From the NCBI GenBank assembly GCA_035939775.1, contig DASZFO010000083.1, forward strand, positions 1 to 60,766: a stretch of DNA of 60,766 bases, written 5' to 3'. Shown here piece after piece: positions 17,190 through 53,029 of this stretch (position 1 is its first letter; each line of letters starts with the position of its first letter). This DNA is from Pirellulales bacterium (GTDB lineage Bacteria > Planctomycetota > Planctomycetia > Pirellulales > DATAWG01). The notes below the pieces were generated by a model. That model ran no database searches, was not told the DNA's origin, and saw only the letters and a program-made list of their open reading frames with translations. The position numbers and the translations under genes are program-made.

Positions 17190-18068
17190 ATGAGCATGGC
17201 CGGCGCGACTCCCGATCGCGACTTCACCACGAAGTTTGCCACCGAGAGCCTTCCTTCCTCGCCCCTCACCCTTCGTCACTCTCCGCCCTTCGTGCTCGAG
17301 ACGCTCTTCGGCAACACGTGCTCCTGGCCTCAGGCAAGCGGATACTATTGGCAACAGTCCCGGCGGCCGTTGACCTGCCTGGCGTTCGTCGCGCCGCTGC
17401 TGCTCCTTTACGAAGGGGGAGTGCTCTTTCTCGGCTCTCAGGCGGTGCGCAACGGGGCCGACGTCTGGCTCCGCCAATTGCTCGATCTGATGGGCTTCGG
17501 GCAGTATTTCCTGTTGCCGGTTTTGACCGTGGGCATCTTGCTCGGATGGCACCACGCTGCCCGGCAGCCATGGCGGACCGTGCCAGGGGTGCTCTATGCC
17601 ATGTTCGCGGAATGCCTGCTGCTGGCGCTGGCGCTGCTGGTTATCGCCCGGCTGCAAGGCGCGTTTCTATCGATGTTTCTGCCGGCCCAGACCGATTGGC
17701 CGGTCGCGGCCTCGGTCATCTCGGACACGCTCGCTACGGCCGGAAGGCTGGTCAGCTTTTTCGGCGCCGGAATCTATGAGGAAGTGCTCTTCCGCCTGAT
17801 GCTCTTGCCGTTGGCGGCTTGGGTGCTGAGATGGGCCGGATGCAATTCGCGGCAAGCGCTCGTGGGAGCGGTCGTGCTGACGAGCCTGCTCTTCTCGGCG
17901 GCCCACTACATCGGCCCACACGGCCAGCCGCTCGACCTCTCGACGTTTATGTTCCGCTTCGTGGCGGGCGCGTTTTTCGCCGCACTATTTGTCTACCGTG
18001 GCTTCGGTATCGCGGCTGGAAGCCATGCCTTCTACGACATCCTTGTCGGGCTATGCCTGGCGGCGTAG
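17190..18068 (+). CDS. CPBP-family intramembrane metalloprotease (Abi/CAAX protease-like)
   Basis: A multi-pass membrane protein with the CPBP signature: the paired glutamates and Arg in YEEVLFRLML (first Glu at residue 197), a later FSAAHYIG histidine motif, and a C-terminal GSHAFYDILVG. About eight hydrophobic segments span the region from ALLYEGG-like helix 1 to the end. The start is uncertain: ATGs at 17088 and 17190 are both in frame and the first ~40 residues after 17190 are poorly conserved-looking. The substrate is unknown. Confidence 0.85.
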   Translation: MSMAGATPDRDFTTKFATESLPSSPLTLRHSPPFVLETLFGNTCSWPQASGYYWQQSRRPLTCLAFVAPLLLLYEGGVLFLGSQAVRNGADVWLRQLLDLMGFGQYFLLPVLTVGILLGWHHAARQPWRTVPGVLYAMFAECLLLALALLVIARLQGAFLSMFLPAQTDWPVAASVISDTLATAGRLVSFFGAGIYEEVLFRLMLLPLAAWVLRWAGCNSRQALVGAVVLTSLLFSAAHYIGPHGQPLDLSTFMFRFVAGAFFAALFVYRGFGIAAGSHAFYDILVGLCLAA

Positions 18069-34866: not shown

Positions 34867-37101
34867 ATGCCGAGCGAAACCTCCGAGAGTCTGCTGAAAT
34901 CGCGGAGTTATATCGGGCTGCTCTTGGCCCAGTTTCTGGCCGCCTTCAACGATCAGGCGATCCACTTCGTCGCAATTTTTTACGCCGGCGACATGCTGGT
35001 GCGCTATGTCGGCACGAAGCACATCGACGAAAAGGCGGTTGTGACGATCGTCACGGCCTGCTTCATCTCACCGTTCTTCTTCTTCTCTCCTCTGGCCGGC
35101 GTGCTGGCCGACAAGTTCAGCAAGCGGGCGATCATCGTTTTCTGGAAATACGCCGAGATCGCGATTACAGGCGTGGCGCTGGTAGGTTTTCTCCTGCCGC
35201 ATGCCGCCGGCTGGGGCTGGGCCAGCCCGCAAACGCTGGCCGTGCTCGGGGCTGCGCTCGTGGTGGCGGCGGTGTTCATGATGGGAACCCATAGCGCGTT
35301 TTTCATTCCCGCCAAATACGGGATTATGCCGGAGATTCTTAGCACCTCGGTCCTCTCGCGCGGCAACGGGCTATTGGAGGGGACGAGCTTCACGGCGAAT
35401 ATTCTCGGCACGGCGTTCGGCGGTTTTTGCTACGCGGCGCTCAAATCCAGAATTCTCGATAGCGGCGAGCTTGAGCCTGGCAAGGAATGGCTCATCGGAG
35501 TCGTCTTGCTGGGGTTGGCGATGGTCGGGACTCTTGCGGCGCGCTTCATCGCGCGCATTCCGGCCGCCGCGCCCGACCAACCTCTGATCTGGCAGCCCTG
35601 GATTCCCTTGAAGTCGAGCTTCGCGGTGCTGCGCTGCTCGCGGCCGCTCGTGCTGGCCACCGTTGGAATCGCCTTTTTCACCTTCATGACGCTGTTCTTG
35701 CGGCAAACGTTGATCTTTCAGGGCGAGTCCGCGAAGGATTACCACGAGTATTTTCAACGTCGCAAGACCGAACGAGTGATTCGAGACAAGGTGGCTGAAC
35801 GCGCCCGCGAACGCGCGGCGGAGGAGGCGGCACTCAGCGACGATGCGAATTCGGCAGGACCTAGCCCGTCGGGAACCGCCACGGATGATTTCATCAATCC
35901 CGCGGACGTCATCCCTGAGGCCAGTCCGGCTCAGCGCGCCGAGCTTCGAATCGCAATGTTGGCGGCGCTTGTCGGACTCGGCGTGGGCATCGGCTGCGCC
36001 GCTGCTGGAATGCTCTCCGGTGATCGGATCGAGTTGGGACTAGTTCCGATCGGCGCGGTCCTCATGTTCTTGCTAACCTTGGCGTTGGCCGGCGCGATTC
36101 CCGTCGGCCGCGGCGAATCGGAATGGCCAACCCGGCTCTTTTTGATCCTGGTCGGCATTGCGGCGGGACTCTACATCGTGCCGCTGTACACGGTTCTCCA
36201 ACATCGGGCTCCAAAGGAGAGTAAGGGAAGCCTGGTGGCGATGAGCAATTTCCTCAACGTCAGCGGCGGACTGGTGGCGATCGGCGTGTTTTATTTCTTG
36301 ACATACGCCTTTCAGTCGTTATTTAGGCTGAATTTGAGTCGGGAGGATGCGAAGATCTCCTTCGAAAAGTTGTCGCAGTATGTCAATCAGCTTCAATTGC
36401 AACTGCGAATACCGCCCCTGCTGTTTCTCGCGGCAAGCCTGATCACGTTGGTGATGATGCTACTGCTCTGCTTCGCTCGGCCCGATTTCGTATTGCGGAC
36501 GTTTTCTTGGTTTCGCGTGCCGGGCCGGCGACGGCTGCACGCCGTCGGGCTTTCCAATGTGCCGGCCGACGGCCACATCATTCTCGCGACCAATTGCCAC
36601 GGCCTGGATCAGTGGCTTCAAGTGCTCTCGGCCATCGACCGCGGCATGCGATTCGTCATACGCGACGGTGCATCGCGAAACGGCGAGGGCAACGATCGAT
36701 TCCTCGAATCGGTCGCGCGAGGGCTGCGTGTGCTCATTCCCGAGCCGACGTCGACCAATGGGCGCGATTGGGAAAAGTTGGTCGACAACGGTGCGACGAC
36801 GCTCGAGGCGGGGAGCCTGATCGGACTGGCCCTTGACTGTCCGGAGACCAAGAACGAAGCCGATTTGCTTTTGCAGGAACTTCAATCGCGAGTGCCCTCG
36901 GAGGTCCTGCCGGTTTACTGCGGCGCCGGTCCGACCGGGCACGCGGCGCTGCACCACACCGCCTGGCGACCGATCGTCGCCGTCGGCAAGCCGCTCCCCT
37001 TCGGCGCCACGCCGGATCAGATTCGCGCGGCGATTCACGGGCTGGGGGAAGGAGTCGTGCCGCTCACTCCCACTCGATCGTCGCGGGGGGCTTCGAGCTG
37101 A
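34867..37101 (+). CDS. MFS (LplT-like) transporter fused to a degenerate PlsC-like acyltransferase domain
   Basis: 744 residues. Residues ~1-540 form an MFS transporter of the lysophospholipid-flippase (LplT/Aas) type ([49 protein letters not shown]), with an unusual ~80-residue charged cytoplasmic insert near 295-365. Residues ~540-730 resemble a PlsC acyltransferase: [19 protein letters not shown], then RFVIRDG and LRVLIPEP. The catalytic H-x4-D box is not intact (N576-C-H-G-L-D581, His-x2-Asp), and the FPEG motif reads IPEP. No AMP-binding domain follows. Transport is likely; acyl transfer is doubtful. It overlaps guaA by 38 nt, tail to tail. Confidence 0.82.
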
Positions 37102-38647
37102 TGTCGTAGACGACGCGGTTGACGCCTTTCACTTCGTTGATGATCCGCGTCGAGATGCGGGCCAGTAGCTCGTAGGGGAGATGGCTCCAGTCGGCCGTCA
37201 TGAAGTCTTCGGTTTCCACGGCGCGAACGGCGATCACGTCTTCGTAGGTCCGTGCGTCCCCCATCACGCCGACGCTTTGCACCGGAAGCAGCACGGCAAA
37301 CACTTGGGCGGTCTGCCGATAGAGCCGGGCGGCCTTGATCTCGTCCACGACGATCGCGTCGGCGTCGCGGAGCGTGTCGAGCCGCTCGCGCGTCACCTCG
37401 CCTATGCAGCGGACGGCCAGCCCTGGCCCAGGGAACGGATGCCGCCAAACGATCTCTTCCGGCAGGCCAAGCTGCAACCCGAGCTTTCGCACCTCGTCCT
37501 TGAACAGGTCGCGGAGCGGTTCGATCAGCTCGAAGCCCAGTTTATCGGGCAGACCGCCGACGTTGTGATGGAGCTTGATCGTGGCGGCGGGGCCGTCCTG
37601 GGCGGCGCCGCTTTCGATCACGTCAGGATACAGTGTCCCTTGGGCAAGAAAATGCGCGCCTTTGATCCGCGCCGCCTCGGCGGTGAAGCATTCGATGAAG
37701 GCATGGCCGATCCGCCGGCGCTTCTCCTGCGGGTTGGTTTCGCCGGCGAGTGCCGTGAGGAACTTTTCCTCGGCCTGCACGACGTGCAGATCGGTGCGAA
37801 AATGAGTGGTGAACTCACGAATCACTGATTCGGCCTCGTCCTTGCGCAGCAAGCCGTTATCGACCAGGATGCACGACAACTGCGGCCCGATCGCCCGATA
37901 GAGAAGCGCCGCCACGACCGACGAATCGACGCCCCCGGACAGCCCGCAGATCACGCGTCGGTCACCGACTTGCTCTCGGACCCGCGCGATCGTTTCCTCG
38001 GCGAATTCGCCGAGCCGCCAGGTGCCGGCGCAGCCGCAAACGGTCGTAAGAAAGTTCGCCAAGATTTTCGTGCCGCGCGGAGTGTGCGTCACCTCCGGAT
38101 GGAATTGCAGGCCGAAGATCGGCAGCCGCCGATGCTTGACCGCGGCGATCGGGCAGGTGCCGGTGCGGGCGAGCGGAACGAAATCGCTCGATACCCGCGA
38201 CACCTGATCCCCGTGGCTCATCCAGACTTCCGACTGATCGGCCACCCCGGCGAACAGATCGCCGTGCGAGAGCACCTCGACGTGGGCGCGGCCGTATTCT
38301 CGCGCCGGAAAACTTTCGACTCGCCCGCCGAGCGCCTCGCAAATCAACTGCATCCCGTAACAGATTCCCAACACGGGAATGCCAAGCTGGAAAATCGTCG
38401 GATCGCAGTGCGGCGCTCCCGGTTCGTAGACGCTCGCCGGACCGCCGGAGAGGATGATCCCTTTGGGCGCCAGCGCTTTGACCCGCTCAGCGGAGACGTC
38501 GTGCCGGACGATCTCGCAGTAAACGCTTTGCTCGCGGACGCGCCGAGCGATCAACTGGGCATATTGCGAGCCAAAGTCGAAGACGAGGACCTTTTCGTCG
38601 GAAATCCGCGCCGGCTCGATTGCCGGCCCGCTCAGTTCGCGGGTCAT
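37064..38647 (-). CDS. guaA: GMP synthase (glutamine-hydrolysing)
   Basis: Converts XMP to GMP using glutamine and ATP. The class I amidotransferase domain comes first ([22 protein letters not shown], nucleophile Cys in [16 protein letters not shown]). The ATP-pyrophosphatase domain follows (SGGVDSSV), and then the dimerisation domain ending [15 protein letters not shown], the invariant C-terminus. The chosen ATG at 38647 has AAGGA 8 nt upstream and yields 527 residues; the frame stays open to 38860 through non-coding sequence. A promoter-like pair and a 5' hairpin lie just upstream. Confidence 0.97.
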
Positions 38648-38695
38648 GACGATCATCCTTCGGCGCCGCTCGCAAGTCGACGCGGCCCGGAAACG

Positions 38696-38717
38696 AAAAA
38701 CGCCCGTGGCGACGGGC
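38696..38717 (-). promoter_or_regulatory. Hairpin plus U-run in the guaA leader
   Basis: Read in the guaA direction, GCCCGT-CGCC-ACGGGC is followed by GTTTTT. It falls only a few nucleotides after the predicted transcription start and ~50 nt before the guaA ATG. It could stabilise the 5' end or attenuate transcription. The stem is just 6 bp. Confidence 0.4.
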
Positions 38718-38728
38718 TTAAAGATGAG

Positions 38729-38756
38729 ATTATAAGGAGCCCGCCGATCGTGGCAA
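38729..38756 (-). promoter_or_regulatory. Candidate guaA promoter
   Basis: On the minus strand TTGCCA (38756-38751) and a perfect TATAAT (38734-38729) are 16 bp apart, which predicts transcription starting near 38722. Confidence 0.5.
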
Positions 38757-38768
38757 GTGGCGGAAGGG

Positions 38769-38878
38769 GAAGTACAAAGTATGAAGTACAAAGTACAAAA
38801 GAGAGCGGGGTAAAGCGCTGCGGGGCTCGTCGGCCTTCTTCCTCGGTTCATACTTCGCACTTAGTCCCTTTGCACTTC
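38769..38878. repeat. Facing heptanucleotide arrays (GAAGTAC-like), upstream pair
   Basis: Four 7-bp units of the form RAAGTAY run at 38769-38796. About 54 bp later, four diverged units in the reverse orientation run at 38850-38878. The pair could fold into an imperfect hairpin. It lies in the guaA/ATP-grasp divergent intergenic region, which is ~340 bp long and otherwise shows only the guaA promoter elements. Confidence 0.65.
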
Positions 38879-38990
38879 TTCCGGGCCGTTCGCAGACTTC
38901 CCGACTCTGTTCTCTTGGCGTCCCCGGCGTCTTGGCGGTAAGATGGGAGTTGCGCAAACTTGCCACTGGCCCTCGTTAGTCCCGTTAGCA

Positions 38991-41594
38991 ATGAGCCTGG
39001 CTATCTCTCCCCGAGCCAATCCGCAACAGGTCGATCTGTTCGCGGGGTATCAGCCGCTGCCGGGCGTTTATGACGAAATGTTCGCGGCGCCTGGCGAACT
39101 TCGGCCGCAATGGCGGCAATTTGTCACGTTATTGAATGCGATGGGGCGGGTCGAGTTGGGCCGGAGGTGGGAGCAGGCCCAGCGGTTGATCCGGGAGAAT
39201 GGCGTCACGTACAACGTGCACGGCGACGCGGAGGGAAAGGATCGCCCGTGGGAACTCGACGCGATTCCCCTCTTGCTACCCGGCGATGAATGGAGCGCGC
39301 TCTCGACAGGTCTGGCGCAGCGAGCGCGGTTGCTGAACCTGATCCTCGCCGATATTTATGGCCCGCAGACGCTTGTGGCCGGTGGGCATCTGCCGCCAGA
39401 ATTGATATTCGCTCATGCGGGATTTCTCCGCCCCTGCCATCGAATCCATGTTCCGGATCAGACGTTCTTGAGCCTCTACGCCGCCCATTTGGCTCGTTCG
39501 GCCGAAACCGGAAATTGGGTGGTTCTCTCCGATCGCACACAATCTCCGTTGGGAGCCGGTTACGCTGTCGAAAACCGGATCGTGATTTCGCGGATGCTGC
39601 CGAATAAGTATCGCGATTGCCGGGTGGAGCGGCTGGCGTCGTTCTTCATTTCGGTTCGCGAAGCGCTGCACGGTCTGGCGGCGCATCATCGAGAGAACCC
39701 GTGGATCGTTTTGCTCAGCCCCGGCCCGGCCAGCCCGACCTACTTCGAAGACGCCTATCTGGCCCGTTATCTGGGCTACACGCTCGTGGAAGGGGGCGAC
39801 CTCACGGTTCGCGATCAGCGCGTTTATCTTAAGACGCTGGGGGGGCTGATTCAGGTCGACGTCATCCTGCGCCGCGTGCCCGACGACCATTGCGATCCAC
39901 TCGAGTTGCGCGGCGGTTCGCGGGCCGGAGTGCCGGGATTGTTGCAGGCGGTCCGCGGCGGCAATGTCGTGGTGGCCAATGCCCTGGGGAGCGGCCTGCT
40001 CGAAGCGCCAGCGCTGTTGGCATTCTTTCCGCGGCTTGCGCGACATCTCATCGGCGAGGAGTTGCGGATTCCGTCGGTGGCCACCTGGTGGTGCGGCCAG
40101 CCCGCCGAACTGACTCACGTGCTCGAGAACATCGAGCAACTCGTGATCAAGCCGGCGTTCTCGCTCGCGCGAACACGGCCGATCGTCGGCGGGCAACTCT
40201 CGCGCGGCGAGTTGACGGAACTGATCGAACGGATCAAGGCCCGGCCGCGGAATTACGTGGGTCAACAGTGGGTCACGCGCTCGACAGCTCCCGTGATGGC
40301 CAACGGCGGAGTGCAGCCCTGGCACGTGGCCTTGCGGGCGTTCCTCGTCGCGGCCGACGGGTCTTACCAAGTCATGCCCGGCGGGTTGACTCGCGTTTCG
40401 GCGGCCGGCGATCGCTTGGGAGATTCGATGCTGGCGGGCGAAGGGAGCAAGGACGTGTGGGTGCTCTCCGAGGGACCGGTGGCGCCGGTCAGTTTGCTGC
40501 AATCTCCCGAAACGCCCGTTCCGCTGCGACGCAGCGGCAACGATCTGCCGAGCCGCGTGGCAGACAATCTCTATTGGCTGGGGCGGCACGTGGAGCGGGC
40601 CGAAGGGGCCGTCCGACTGCTGCGGAGCATCGTGCTGCGTTTGGCGGGCGAATCCGATCCGGCAAACTTGCCGGAACTGACCTCGCTCTTACACGCTTTG
40701 GCCGAGCAGGGACAAATCCGCCCCGAATTCATCGTCTACGCGGGGGGGAAGGAGACGCCGATCGTCGATCGCGAAATCCTGGCGTTCATTTTCGATCCAC
40801 AGCGCGCCGGCAGCCTCCGTTCGACGGTTGACTCGGTGCGGCACGTCGCCTCCATTGTCCGCGACCGAATTTCGCTCGATAGCTGGCGCATCTTGAACCG
40901 CGTCGAGCAGGACTTCCTTTCGATCCAAACCACCGCCGCGGTCCAGTTGAGCGACGTGCTTTCGATGCTCAACCAGATGATCGTCGACCTCTCGGCCTTT
41001 AGCGGCGTGGGGACGGAAAGCATGACTCGCGGCCCCGGCTGGCGGTTCCTCGATATGGGCCGGCGCATCGAGCGCGCGCAGCACACGATCAGCTTGCTGC
41101 GCAGCACGCTTGTCGCCGACGGCCACGACGAGAACCCGGTGCTCGAAGCACTTCTGGAAATTGCCGACAGCTCGATGACCTATCGCAACCGTTATCTCAC
41201 GACGCTGCGACTTGCGCCGGTGCTCGATCTATTGATGACCGACGAGACGAACCCGCGTTCGGTCGGGTTCCAACTTGTCGCGCTCTCCGGGCATGTGGAA
41301 AACCTGCCGCGAGATCAAGCCGAGCCGTTGTTTACCGCCGAGCAGAGAACGATGCTGGGCGCCCTGGCAAGCTTGCGACTGGCCGACGTCGCTCAACTCA
41401 GCCAGTTGGATCGCGAAGGATCGCGCCGCCATCTCGATCGTTTGCTAAGTCGGCTTGCGCAACAGTTGCGTGCGCTTTCCGATGGCATTTCGCACAAATA
41501 CCTTGTTCACGCCGGCCCGTCGCGGCAGCTCGCGGAGATCCGACCAAGCGCAGGCGCGAAGTACGAAGTAGGAAGAACGAAGGACGAAGTATGA
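38991..41594 (+). CDS. Circularly permuted ATP-grasp / alpha-E domain fusion protein
   Basis: 867 residues. The N-terminal ~470 residues are a circularly permuted ATP-grasp domain (COG2308 type): YDEMFAAPGELRPQW, DAIPLLLPGDEW, VWVLSE-like end, and the GGSRAGVPGLLQAVRGG and VIKPAF segments. The C-terminal ~310 residues are an alpha-E domain (COG2307 type): LPSRVADNLYWLGRHVERAEG, RILNRVEQDFLSIQ-like helices, and YRNRYLTTLRLAPVLDLLM (fragments). ATP-grasp enzymes form amide or peptide bonds; this group is linked by gene neighbourhood to transglutaminases and inferred to act on peptides, with the substrate unknown. The ATG at 38991 is preferred over 38943. Its last ~11 codons come from a heptanucleotide array. 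Confidence 0.88.
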   Translation: MSLAISPRANPQQVDLFAGYQPLPGVYDEMFAAPGELRPQWRQFVTLLNAMGRVELGRRWEQAQRLIRENGVTYNVHGDAEGKDRPWELDAIPLLLPGDEWSALSTGLAQRARLLNLILADIYGPQTLVAGGHLPPELIFAHAGFLRPCHRIHVPDQTFLSLYAAHLARSAETGNWVVLSDRTQSPLGAGYAVENRIVISRMLPNKYRDCRVERLASFFISVREALHGLAAHHRENPWIVLLSPGPASPTYFEDAYLARYLGYTLVEGGDLTVRDQRVYLKTLGGLIQVDVILRRVPDDHCDPLELRGGSRAGVPGLLQAVRGGNVVVANALGSGLLEAPALLAFFPRLARHLIGEELRIPSVATWWCGQPAELTHVLENIEQLVIKPAFSLARTRPIVGGQLSRGELTELIERIKARPRNYVGQQWVTRSTAPVMANGGVQPWHVALRAFLVAADGSYQVMPGGLTRVSAAGDRLGDSMLAGEGSKDVWVLSEGPVAPVSLLQSPETPVPLRRSGNDLPSRVADNLYWLGRHVERAEGAVRLLRSIVLRLAGESDPANLPELTSLLHALAEQGQIRPEFIVYAGGKETPIVDREILAFIFDPQRAGSLRSTVDSVRHVASIVRDRISLDSWRILNRVEQDFLSIQTTAAVQLSDVLSMLNQMIVDLSAFSGVGTESMTRGPGWRFLDMGRRIERAQHTISLLRSTLVADGHDENPVLEALLEIADSSMTYRNRYLTTLRLAPVLDLLMTDETNPRSVGFQLVALSGHVENLPRDQAEPLFTAEQRTMLGALASLRLADVAQLSQLDREGSRRHLDRLLSRLAQQLRALSDGISHKYLVHAGPSRQLAEIRPSAGAKYEVGRTKDEV

Positions 41595-41671
41595 AACCAG
41601 GAATCCCGTGATGAGTGACCCTCGCTTCCGTATTTCGTCCTTCGTCCTTAGTACTTTGTACTTCGTCGTTC
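41558..41671. repeat. Facing heptanucleotide arrays (GAAGTAC-like), downstream pair
   Basis: Five head-to-tail 7-bp units at 41558-41592 (consensus GAAGTAC/GAAGGAC) are followed, 37 bp later, by six units in the reverse orientation at 41630-41671. The left array overlaps the 3' end of the ATP-grasp/alpha-E gene. The right one ends 13 bp before the transglutaminase ATG. Confidence 0.8.
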
Positions 41672-41684
41672 ATCGTTGAATCGC

Positions 41685-42572
41685 ATGGACTATAAAATCA
41701 CGCATACCACCGTCTACTCCTACAGCGAAAAGGTGCCGATCTGTCACAATGAGGTGCATCTGACGCCTCGAGAGCATCCGCGGCAGAAGCGCTTGACCAG
41801 CCGTTTGGCCGTTCGCCCGCAGCCGGCGGCGATTGAGAACGTGCTCGATTACTTCGGAAACCACGTCAGCTACTTCACGGTCGAGGTGGGGCACGAACGG
41901 CTGACAGTGACGGCTTCGAGCCGAGTGCGGCTCAGCGAACTATCGGCGCCGCTGGCGAACGGAACGCCCTGGGAGGCGATCCGCGACCAGATGGCGTCCG
42001 ACCGCAGCCCGCCCTTTCTTGAAGCCTGTCAATTCGCATTCGACTCGCCGCATGTGGCAACGTCGCCGGAATTATCCTCGTTTGCCGCGGAGACGTTTAC
42101 ACCCGGCCGGCCATGGCTCGAAGCGCTGTTGCATTTAACGCGCCGAATTCATACGGAGTTCCGCTACGACAAAACGGCGACCACCATCAGCACTCCGCTG
42201 GACGAAGTGCTCCGGCACCGTCGTGGCGTCTGCCAGGATTTCGCTCATCTGGAGATCGGCTGTTTGCGGTCGCTCGGCCTGCCCGCCCGCTATGTGAGCG
42301 GCTATCTGGTCACGGCCCCGCCGCCTGGGCAGCCGCGGCTCGTCGGAGCCGACGCGTCGCACGCCTGGGTGTCGGCCTTTTCGCCCGACTACGGCTGGAT
42401 CGACGTGGACCCCACGAACGATCAAATCCCCTCGACTCGGCACATCACGCTCGCCTGGGGACGCGACTATAGCGACGTCGCTCCGATCAAAGGGGTATTC
42501 ATCGGCGGCGGGCGGCATGGAATGAGCGTTTCGGTCGACGTCGCGCCGGTCTCCGGCGACGGCGAGGCTTGA
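41685..42572 (+). CDS. Transglutaminase-like cysteine peptidase-fold protein (bacterial N-terminal region plus core)
   Basis: 295 residues. A bacterial-transglutaminase N-terminal beta domain (DYKITHTTVYSYSEKV, the usual opening) precedes the papain-like core, whose triad is visible as Cys183 (RRGVCQDFAH), His226 (DASHAWVSAF) and Asp242 (DVDPTND). Family members may crosslink or cleave peptides; the substrate is unknown. It follows the ATP-grasp/alpha-E gene on the same strand, the association expected of this system. Cytoplasmic: no signal peptide. The start is the ATG at 41685; a TTG 9 bp earlier is also in frame. Confidence 0.9.
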   Translation: MDYKITHTTVYSYSEKVPICHNEVHLTPREHPRQKRLTSRLAVRPQPAAIENVLDYFGNHVSYFTVEVGHERLTVTASSRVRLSELSAPLANGTPWEAIRDQMASDRSPPFLEACQFAFDSPHVATSPELSSFAAETFTPGRPWLEALLHLTRRIHTEFRYDKTATTISTPLDEVLRHRRGVCQDFAHLEIGCLRSLGLPARYVSGYLVTAPPPGQPRLVGADASHAWVSAFSPDYGWIDVDPTNDQIPSTRHITLAWGRDYSDVAPIKGVFIGGGRHGMSVSVDVAPVSGDGEA

Positions 42573-51253: not shown

Positions 51254-53029
51254 CTAGCGGCGAAGCTCGTCGCGCTTCAAATCACCCGCCGCGATGTTGT
51301 AAAGTCGCTGGCCGACGATCACGCGTTTGGTCGGATGGTCGTGACGCAAGCGGTCGCAGGGGATCTCGCCGATCTCGTGCCAGGCGAAAGGAAACGGCGG
51401 CATGTAATCGCGGTCCCAGGTGAAGCAGAAGTAATCCGCTCCGCCTTTGAGGTCTTCCTCAGTCGGAGGCCAGTGCCGCGGCTCGATTGGATCGCCGTAG
51501 TAATAGGTGAATAATGTCTCGATGAGGCCGAAGCTCACCAGCCGGATGTGCGGGGGCAGCTTTCGTTTCAGCTCCGCCATCGCGGGAGCCGCATCCGCGC
51601 TGGCCTTGGCCATGCTTCCGATCACGACGCCGACGTGCGACATCGCTACAAACGCGGCCAGCGCGACGACGAAAAGATACCCCCGGCCGCGCGATCCGAG
51701 CGAGCCACGCCACAGCAGCGCGGCAAACGTCGCCAGCGCAAGGCCCAGGTAAATCGCCGCGAACCAGATTGGTTGCGACAATTCGCTCATCTGAAAACCG
51801 TCAATCCAACTCGCCCCTGCGACCGCCAGGCCGCTGAATAGGATCGCCCCCGACACGCCAGCCAAGTAGAGCGTCCAGCCCAGTCGCATCGCACGAGGCG
51901 CATCGGCGGCCAAGGCCCGCTGAATCACCAGGCCGATGAGCAGCGCAAGGCAAGGGAACAGTGGCATGAAATAGCGTTCCTTCGCCCCCGGCACAAGCCA
52001 ACAACTCGGGAATGCCACGGCCAGGCCGATCGCGAGAAACATCACCCAGGGACGCGCTTCCCCAATCCGTTTGCGGAAGCAGGCGAACAGATACGCCGGC
52101 AACAGCGGCGACCAGGGAAGCATGCTAATCAGCACCCCGATGGGGTAAATCAGCAAGTGCATCGCGGCCCGCGTCCAACCCGCGTCTTCGAACCGCAGAC
52201 CGACGTCCGACATCCAAATCTCGCGCACCGATCGCCAATCGGTTGCGAGGTAGAACGGTATTTGCCACGCGCCGACGACCGCGGCGAACAGTCCGATACC
52301 GGCCAAATGCGACCAACTGAAAAGTTGCCGCCAATCGCGCCGCCAGGCCAGATAAACGACAGCCGCTCCCAAGAAATAGATCGGCGCTTGCGGTCCCTTC
52401 GCAAGCGCACCCAGCGCGGCGAATAGATAGCCGGCGAGCCACGGCCACGGCTGGCGCCAATGACACGAGTATCCCCAATGCCAAAGCAACAGCGATCCGC
52501 TCACCAGCAGCGTGAAGATCGCGTCTGTTTCTGCGAGGCGGCCCATTTGCAATACCATTCCCATCGTGGCGAAGACAAACCCGGCGGACAACGCCCCGAA
52601 TCGCGAAAGAAACTGCCGCCCATAGCCGTAAATGAGCAAGGTCGTCAACCAGGTGGCCAAGACACTCGGCAGCCGCACGGCCCATAGCGAGCCTTCGCCG
52701 AACAGCAACTCGAACAGTGCGATCGGATAGCTCCCTAGCGGCGGCCTGCTCAGAAATGGCTGGCCTTGCTGCCGCGGCACGATCCAATCGCCCGTTTGCA
52801 AAATCTCGGTGGCGACTTCCGCTCGGCGCGTCTCTTCCCCGCGAATGGGCAGCGCTGTCAGTCGCGCGCCGTAGGTTGCGGCCGTGACGAGCGCGAGAAC
52901 CAGAAGCTCCCACTCGATGAGACGCGTCCAGCGACGCGGGGCTCGGGACTCGGGATTCGGGGACCGAGACGCGCACGCGGATTCTGAGAATCCAAAATCG
53001 GCAAACTCTTTCGACGCATGGATCGCCAC
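51254..53029 (-). CDS. GT39/ArnT-family membrane glycosyltransferase
   Basis: 591 residues with ~10 TM helices and the PMT/ArnT (GT39) first-loop signature: LTALPIRGEETRRAEVATEILQTGDWIVP is condensed here as RGEETRRAE, then FLSRPPLGSYPIALF, VRLPSVLATW and a GRLAETDAIFTLLV loop. The C-terminal soluble part has YYYGDPIEPRHWP and FCFTWDRDY. It would glycosylate lipids or proteins from a polyprenyl-phosphate sugar donor. The start at GTG 53029 has GGAG 6 nt upstream; an ATG at 53155 is also in frame, but its extra 42 residues look non-coding. A heptanucleotide array (52938-52965) is translated near residue 22. Confidence 0.85.
   Translation of the reverse strand: MAIHASKEFADFGFSESACASRSPNPESRAPRRWTRLIEWELLVLALVTAATYGARLTALPIRGEETRRAEVATEILQTGDWIVPRQQGQPFLSRPPLGSYPIALFELLFGEGSLWAVRLPSVLATWLTTLLIYGYGRQFLSRFGALSAGFVFATMGMVLQMGRLAETDAIFTLLVSGSLLLWHWGYSCHWRQPWPWLAGYLFAALGALAKGPQAPIYFLGAAVVYLAWRRDWRQLFSWSHLAGIGLFAAVVGAWQIPFYLATDWRSVREIWMSDVGLRFEDAGWTRAAMHLLIYPIGVLISMLPWSPLLPAYLFACFRKRIGEARPWVMFLAIGLAVAFPSCWLVPGAKERYFMPLFPCLALLIGLVIQRALAADAPRAMRLGWTLYLAGVSGAILFSGLAVAGASWIDGFQMSELSQPIWFAAIYLGLALATFAALLWRGSLGSRGRGYLFVVALAAFVAMSHVGVVIGSMAKASADAAPAMAELKRKLPPHIRLVSFGLIETLFTYYYGDPIEPRHWPPTEEDLKGGADYFCFTWDRDYMPPFPFAWHEIGEIPCDRLRHDHPTKRVIVGQRLYNIAAGDLKRDELRR
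52938..52965 (+). repeat. Four heptanucleotide units (GGGACTC-like) within the GT39 N-terminus
   Basis: GGGGCTC, GGGACTC, GGGATTC and GGGGACC follow without gaps and encode the disordered segment before the first TM helix of the GT39 protein. Confidence 0.55.

Follow-up and report, generated by a model that had tools for sequence, protein, structure and literature searches.

Facing GAAGTAC arrays on both sides of an ATP-grasp/alpha-E gene in a Pirellulales bacterium: copies of a dispersed heptad element at gene borders

An ATP-grasp/alpha-E gene in the genome of a Pirellulales bacterium is flanked on either side by a pair of facing arrays of the heptad GAAGTAC, which raises the question of whether the arrays mark past movement of the gene or whether each pair arose at its own gene junction. 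The gene is located on contig DASZFO010000083.1 of assembly GCA_035939775.1 (a 6.39-Mb draft of 384 contigs, 96% complete), and the stretch of 60,766 nt that was analysed is referred to below as the window. The features concerned are collected in Table 1.

Table 1. Genes and heptad arrays around the ATP-grasp/alpha-E gene (positions in the window)
Feature	Position	Strand	Remarks
guaA (GMP synthase)	37064..38656	-	divergent upstream neighbour; start by sequence inspection
Upstream pair, left arm	38769..38799	+	GAAGTAC, AAAGTAT, GAAGTAC, AAAGTAC, AAA, i.e. four GAAGTAC-type heptads and AAA
Upstream pair, spacer	38800..38842		
Upstream pair, right arm	~38843..38878	-	degenerate facing heptads
Circularly permuted ATP-grasp + Alpha-E gene	38943..41594	+	883 aa ORF; true start may be 38991
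Downstream pair, left arm	41557..41592	+	overlaps last codons and TGA of the ATP-grasp/alpha-E gene
Downstream pair, stop codon end and spacer	41593..41628		
Downstream pair, right arm	41629..41671	-	ends 13 nt before next ATG (41685)
Transglutaminase-like gene (Bact_transglu_N, Transglut_core)	41685..42572	+	

Facing arrays are indeed present at all four sites on direct reading of the sequence, as the preliminary description had reported, and TRF independently reports 7-bp arrays at three of them (38770-38799, 41557-41595 and 41634-41671). The copies of the unit within the arrays are partly inexact; the window contains six exact GAAGTAC copies where 2.1 would be expected, and four of the six lie within these arrays. 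A common GAAGTAC unit, as first described, is borne out in three arms but not in the degenerate upstream right arm, which contains no exact copy. Likewise, the suggested potential to fold as hairpins is evident in the downstream pair, which folds strongly relative to shuffled sequences (z -7.4 as RNA, -4.7 as DNA), whereas the upstream pair folds weakly as the + strand (z -0.7 as RNA, -1.2 as DNA) and well only as - strand RNA with G-U pairs (z -4.7). This pair lies between the divergent guaA and ATP-grasp/alpha-E genes, 64-112 nt away from the nearest gene starts and not adjoining them. The guaA frame stays open through these arrays (window 38657-38860, - strand) to a GTG at 38860, and automatic annotation could give guaA a false, array-encoded N-terminus. 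At the other end, approximately the last 11 codons of the ATP-grasp/alpha-E gene (KYEVGRTKDEV) are read from the left arm of the downstream pair; the orthologous protein (L042) of G001, a genome of a sister genus used for the comparison of orthologous junctions, terminates before its own array. The window is without any Rfam match.

The bracketing had been taken as a possible mark of past mobility of the gene. Arrays on both sides of the gene would suit such a history, as would the upstream neighbour, which is guaA in the analysed genome and another gene in G001. Against this, the downstream neighbour is conserved in G001, and orthologs are present in 29 of the 39 related genomes searched, with identity dropping with kinship (72% within the same family), so that the distribution in relatives, which the preliminary description had proposed as a check, looks vertical. 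Its other check, for paired arrays around other genes, revealed that bracketing is not special to this one: in the sampled DNA ten genes have heptad arrays in both flanking gaps, compared with 5.2 +/- 2.0 expected (p 0.025), and bracketing therefore requires no gene mobility. This excess fits at most mild local clustering. We consider past movement of the gene between the arrays extremely improbable; the gene looks ordinary and vertically inherited, and the two facing pairs are two separate copies of a dispersed short element, each pair being better read as an event of its own at its own junction.

The GAAGTAC repeat has undergone a lineage-specific, genome-wide expansion. With one mismatch allowed, the 14-mer GAAGTACGAAGTAC has 157 matches in the 6.39-Mb genome, against one for the reversed pattern, and all 56 relatives from the order are at background; an 18-mer occurs 66 times in the analysed genome and 0-2 times in 246 genomes of the phylum. 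We estimate about 108 GAAGTAC arrays in the genome, i.e. roughly a hundred copies. An exact 23-mer also turns up in unrelated bacteria, at least 100 stretches of which contain it (from Acidobacteria, Thermomicrobiales, Bacteroidota and Thiohalocapsa, among others), and such exact arrays in unrelated phyla may be due to transfer or convergence. Many of the arrays seen in other phyla (L071-L150) are in one Acidobacteria assembly, BP8.bin110.

Each copy is an element of about 31 bp, made up of four heptads and a final GAA, with a fixed phase at both ends. Four heptads were counted in 52/94 GAAGTAC arrays, while some arrays have 3, 5 or 6 units; the 5' edge is sharp, no further matching base being found upstream in 87/94, and at the 3' edge exactly GAA more follows in 50/94. 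The repeat is a defined element and not an open-ended microsatellite. Arrays of other lengths are nonetheless what replication slippage would leave, by microsatellite-like growth at each site, with 7 nt perhaps being the contact length of the polymerase (an idea of Mrazek 2007, as cited in a passage of PMC4679880). Slippage would also agree with the unique enrichment of period 7 in the genome: a unit-agnostic scan of 875 kb found 83 period-7 arrays, compared with 0-10 for periods that are not a multiple of 7, and period 14, which is such a multiple, stood out as well. However, one unit at approximately 100 dispersed sites, with fixed end phase and a four-copy mode, is unexpected from a local process, and a version in which slippage takes place at the base of hairpins between genes predicts extra hairpins on the 3' side that are absent (non-heptad hairpins on that side, mean 7.0 beside arrays and 7.0 in array-free gaps, p 0.98). 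The hairpin-stall version was accordingly rejected, and slippage in general appears improbable.

GAAGTAC coexists in the analysed genome with the families GGAGGTC, GAATGAC, GGGGACT/GGGGGCT, AAGTGGC, AAAATCC and GGGACTC, and G001 has the further heptad families GAGGGGC, AGTGGTT, GAATGCC and AGGCTAC. The other heptad families of the genome show GAAGTAC-like behaviour. The window itself contains a GAGGGGC-like heptad stretch at 17254-17281 and a GGGACTC heptad stretch, inside a predicted ORF, at 52933-52962.

The arrays are strongly polar and are anchored at gene borders. In tight gaps the 5' end of the purine strand sits at a stop or start codon or no more than about 15 nt from it. (The sampled DNA was partly picked around GAAGTAC matches, which biases densities upward and affects polarity and distance statistics less.) Neighbouring GAAGTAC arrays are convergent in 17 cases, tandem in one and divergent in none, the corresponding figures for all families being 14/1/1, and an inverted partner lies on the 3' side of the purine strand in 41/95 arrays and on its 5' side in 1/95. 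A stop codon on the 5' side of an array is at a median distance of 0.5 nt (<=15 nt in 26/34), compared with 87 nt for a stop on the 3' side (<=15 nt in 3/41); for gene starts, which in these statistics came from a simple codon-usage caller script, 25/44 on the 5' side and 3/37 on the 3' side are within 15 nt. Half of the arrays are unpaired with polarity unchanged, a border lying on the 5' side in 26 and on the 3' side in 4 of the 38 single arrays, and the bias extends to GAAGTAC loci of unrelated phyla (74 versus 34). Even scatter regardless of gene borders, which the preliminary description had set against its own account, was not seen. The AAAATCC family is an apparent exception, yet its three copies fit when the opposite strand is taken as the outward one, and the exception looks like a matter of strand naming. 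Since the arrays point away from the adjoining gene, a junction with one array per side has a convergent pair capable of forming a hairpin.

Such hairpins could be the selected feature, the arms being kept as pairs because they act in RNA as terminators, mRNA stabilisers or operon insulators. The strong folding of the downstream pair points in this direction, as does the behaviour of the long non-heptad inverted repeats of the genome, which favour convergent gene ends (27/57 convergent gaps, compared with 53/262 codirectional and 4/48 divergent). Heptad pairs, in contrast, have no convergent preference (3/57 convergent, 21/262 codirectional and 1/48 divergent gaps), the unpaired half of the arrays has the same polarity, and start-anchored and stop-anchored arrays are equally common. 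Neither was any compensatory change between arms detected in a comparison of 17 pairs only, in which matching was 16.5 within pairs and 15.7 between pairs (p 0.10). An intrinsic terminator, for which a preference for gene 3' ends would be expected, was rejected on the equal use of starts and stops and the lack of enrichment in convergent gaps, and we give selected RNA hairpins of any kind little credence. In the sampled genome many gene gaps are taken up by the long non-heptad inverted repeats; their dispersed families include GTTAGCCGGTTCGCTTGCGAACCG and TTGGAGTTCAGGCTTTAGCCTGC, and in G001 GTAGCAGGCACACTCCGTGTGCC. One such repeat follows the transglutaminase gene in the window (42552 onward). 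Other dispersed repeats were found about equally often in array-adjacent DNA (20/39) and in control intergenic DNA (43/103).

Comparison with G001, in which orthologs of array-flanking genes were located by querying with fragments of those genes, provides one near-empty site: the gmk-yicC gap measures 147 bp in the analysed genome, where a pair fills it edge to edge, and 5 nt in G001. At two further junctions both genera have a facing pair, built in each case from different units: at the alpha-E/transglutaminase junction a GAATGAC-type pair in G001 versus the GAAGTAC pair here, and in the gap preceding accA, where G001 has a GAGGGGC pair and the analysed genome a GAAGTAC pair. Site-by-site conservation of pairs was considered and rejected, matches being too few and hairpin occupancy of the syntenic G001 junctions (5/9) not being above baseline (31/82, p 0.22). 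In L056 (G006), from another family of the order, the alpha-E/transglutaminase junction has an apparent facing pair of GTGGAC-like heptads. G015 and G031 (L058, L070) are two species of the same genus in which the genes on either side of the junction preceding the alpha-E gene are about 90% identical. Both have GAATGAC-like repeats at the two borders of this junction, but the nested palindromes inside it are entirely unlike in the two; G015 has few arrays overall.

One possible explanation is that the pairs are a mobile element of MITE or REP/REPIN type, moved by a transposase acting in trans, with the heptad arms as its terminal inverted repeats. Fixed size, dispersal and insertion into a short junction are in keeping with this, the arms face inward as terminal inverted repeats do, and the arms of the GAATGAC family are longer, with a TCTAAA motif common to both genera. 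The interiors, however, are by inspection unrelated between copies, no target-site duplication was found at the arrays (p 0.48), and two convergent pairs have different heptads in each arm (L032 7221/7290 and L217 2293/2445). Four RAYT-type (Y1_Tnp) loci of the genome were likewise without adjoining period-7 arrays, and an association with RAYTs was rejected. A MITE in the strict form, with target-site duplication, shared interior and specially matched arms, was set aside also, and we regard a mobile element of this general type as unlikely.

We favour the hypothesis, at a probability of roughly 0.55, that a dispersed element of about 31 bp was inserted into tight gene junctions with heptads laid at the edges. 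Copies would have originated when DNA was inserted where the space between two genes was very short, the inserted stretch receiving heptad sequence at one edge or at both. Both edges are occupied in 10 gaps, compared with 2.0 expected under independence, so that the origins of the two arms at one junction are linked; both were probably drawn from a shared family pool, rather than one arm being copied into the other. On this view, the folding into hairpins and the additional residues at the C-terminus of the alpha-E protein would be side effects that are tolerated since the coding sequence is left intact. That the same rule holds equally at starts and stops fits insertion or repair at the DNA level better than a signal at the RNA level. 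Size, phase, polarity, border anchoring and the near-empty orthologous site are direct observations, and the insertion event itself is seen at that one site only, between different genera. Counting against insertion at tight junctions are the frequency of pairs, which exceeds what independent insertions would yield although the arms within a pair show no special match, and the fading of polarity in gaps >200 bp (12 at the 5' edge versus 8 at the 3' edge), the upstream pair of the window not hugging a border either. The negative search for target-site duplications (p 0.48) counts against it as well.

As to how heptads might be laid down, no candidate enzyme for array insertion was found in the genome. 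Conceivably, when the chromosome breaks at a gene junction, the 3' ends would be capped with heptad arrays before they are rejoined, a telomere-like healing with a lineage-specific 7-nt unit. End-capping would account for edge polarity, independent arms, mixed-unit pairs, single-sided cases, phase and border anchoring; we nevertheless hold it to be very doubtful. The RVT_1 profile has no match in this genome (96% complete), and templating by a reverse transcriptase or telomerase-like repeat addition was rejected; the absence of RVT_1 speaks against a telomerase-like enzyme but has no bearing on repair that copies from other arrays. Ku is present in one copy, but a genome with few arrays has it as well.

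Similar heptads have been described elsewhere. In Xanthomonas, the GGGAATC heptamers are dispersed in about 185 copies, mostly intergenic and mostly of four units, with 70-75 convergent pairs, and lie almost always nearer the 5' ORF (28 nt) than the downstream ORF (160 nt); they have no leading/lagging bias, are commoner between convergent than divergent ORFs, and the convergent heptamers have been tied to G-quadruplexes (Rehm et al. 2015, PMC4692102). GAAGTAC resembles them in its 7-bp unit, four-copy mode, convergent neighbours and closeness to the 5' ORF but, lacking a G-tract, cannot form the proposed G-quadruplex, and is a Xanthomonas-type heptamer by anatomy and not by that property. Furthermore, several heptad families coexist in the analysed genome, and whereas 83% of the GGGAATC copies are position-conserved between two Xanthomonas species (PMC4692102), the unit differs at both orthologous sites with a heptad pair in both genera. 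The GGGGACT family of the analysed genome would be G-rich enough to form a G-quadruplex. The tandem heptanucleotide of the cyanobacterium Calothrix has the unit CCCCAGT, to which the GGGGACT family is similar as a string. That tandem heptanucleotides exist in Calothrix is cited in a passage of PMC4692102.

The TAACTGA direct repeats of Beggiatoaceae, cyanobacteria and Bacteroidetes (MacGregor 2015, PMC4679880) are likewise intergenic heptads of patchy occurrence across phyla; unlike GAAGTAC arrays, they lie mostly just upstream of start codons in two to six copies and, with only one indirect repeat, form essentially no facing pairs (PMC4679880). REP, REPIN and BIME sequences are, like GAAGTAC, dispersed extragenic repeats of 20-40 bp that often occur as facing pairs (PMC3733652, PMC3116915), but a single REP/REPIN unit is imperfectly palindromic and tagged with GTAG or CGTC, whereas that of GAAGTAC is a run of tandem heptads. 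The convergent pattern is thus already described for Xanthomonas GGGAATC, where it was left unexplained, and GAAGTAC is a version of it without G-tracts, so that G-quadruplexes cannot be its general cause. A unit free of G-tracts, several units per genome and a border bias across phyla point to a general process that places seven-base repeats at gene junctions, and suggest that neither selection for hairpins nor G-quadruplexes are needed to explain the layout shared with the Xanthomonas heptamers.
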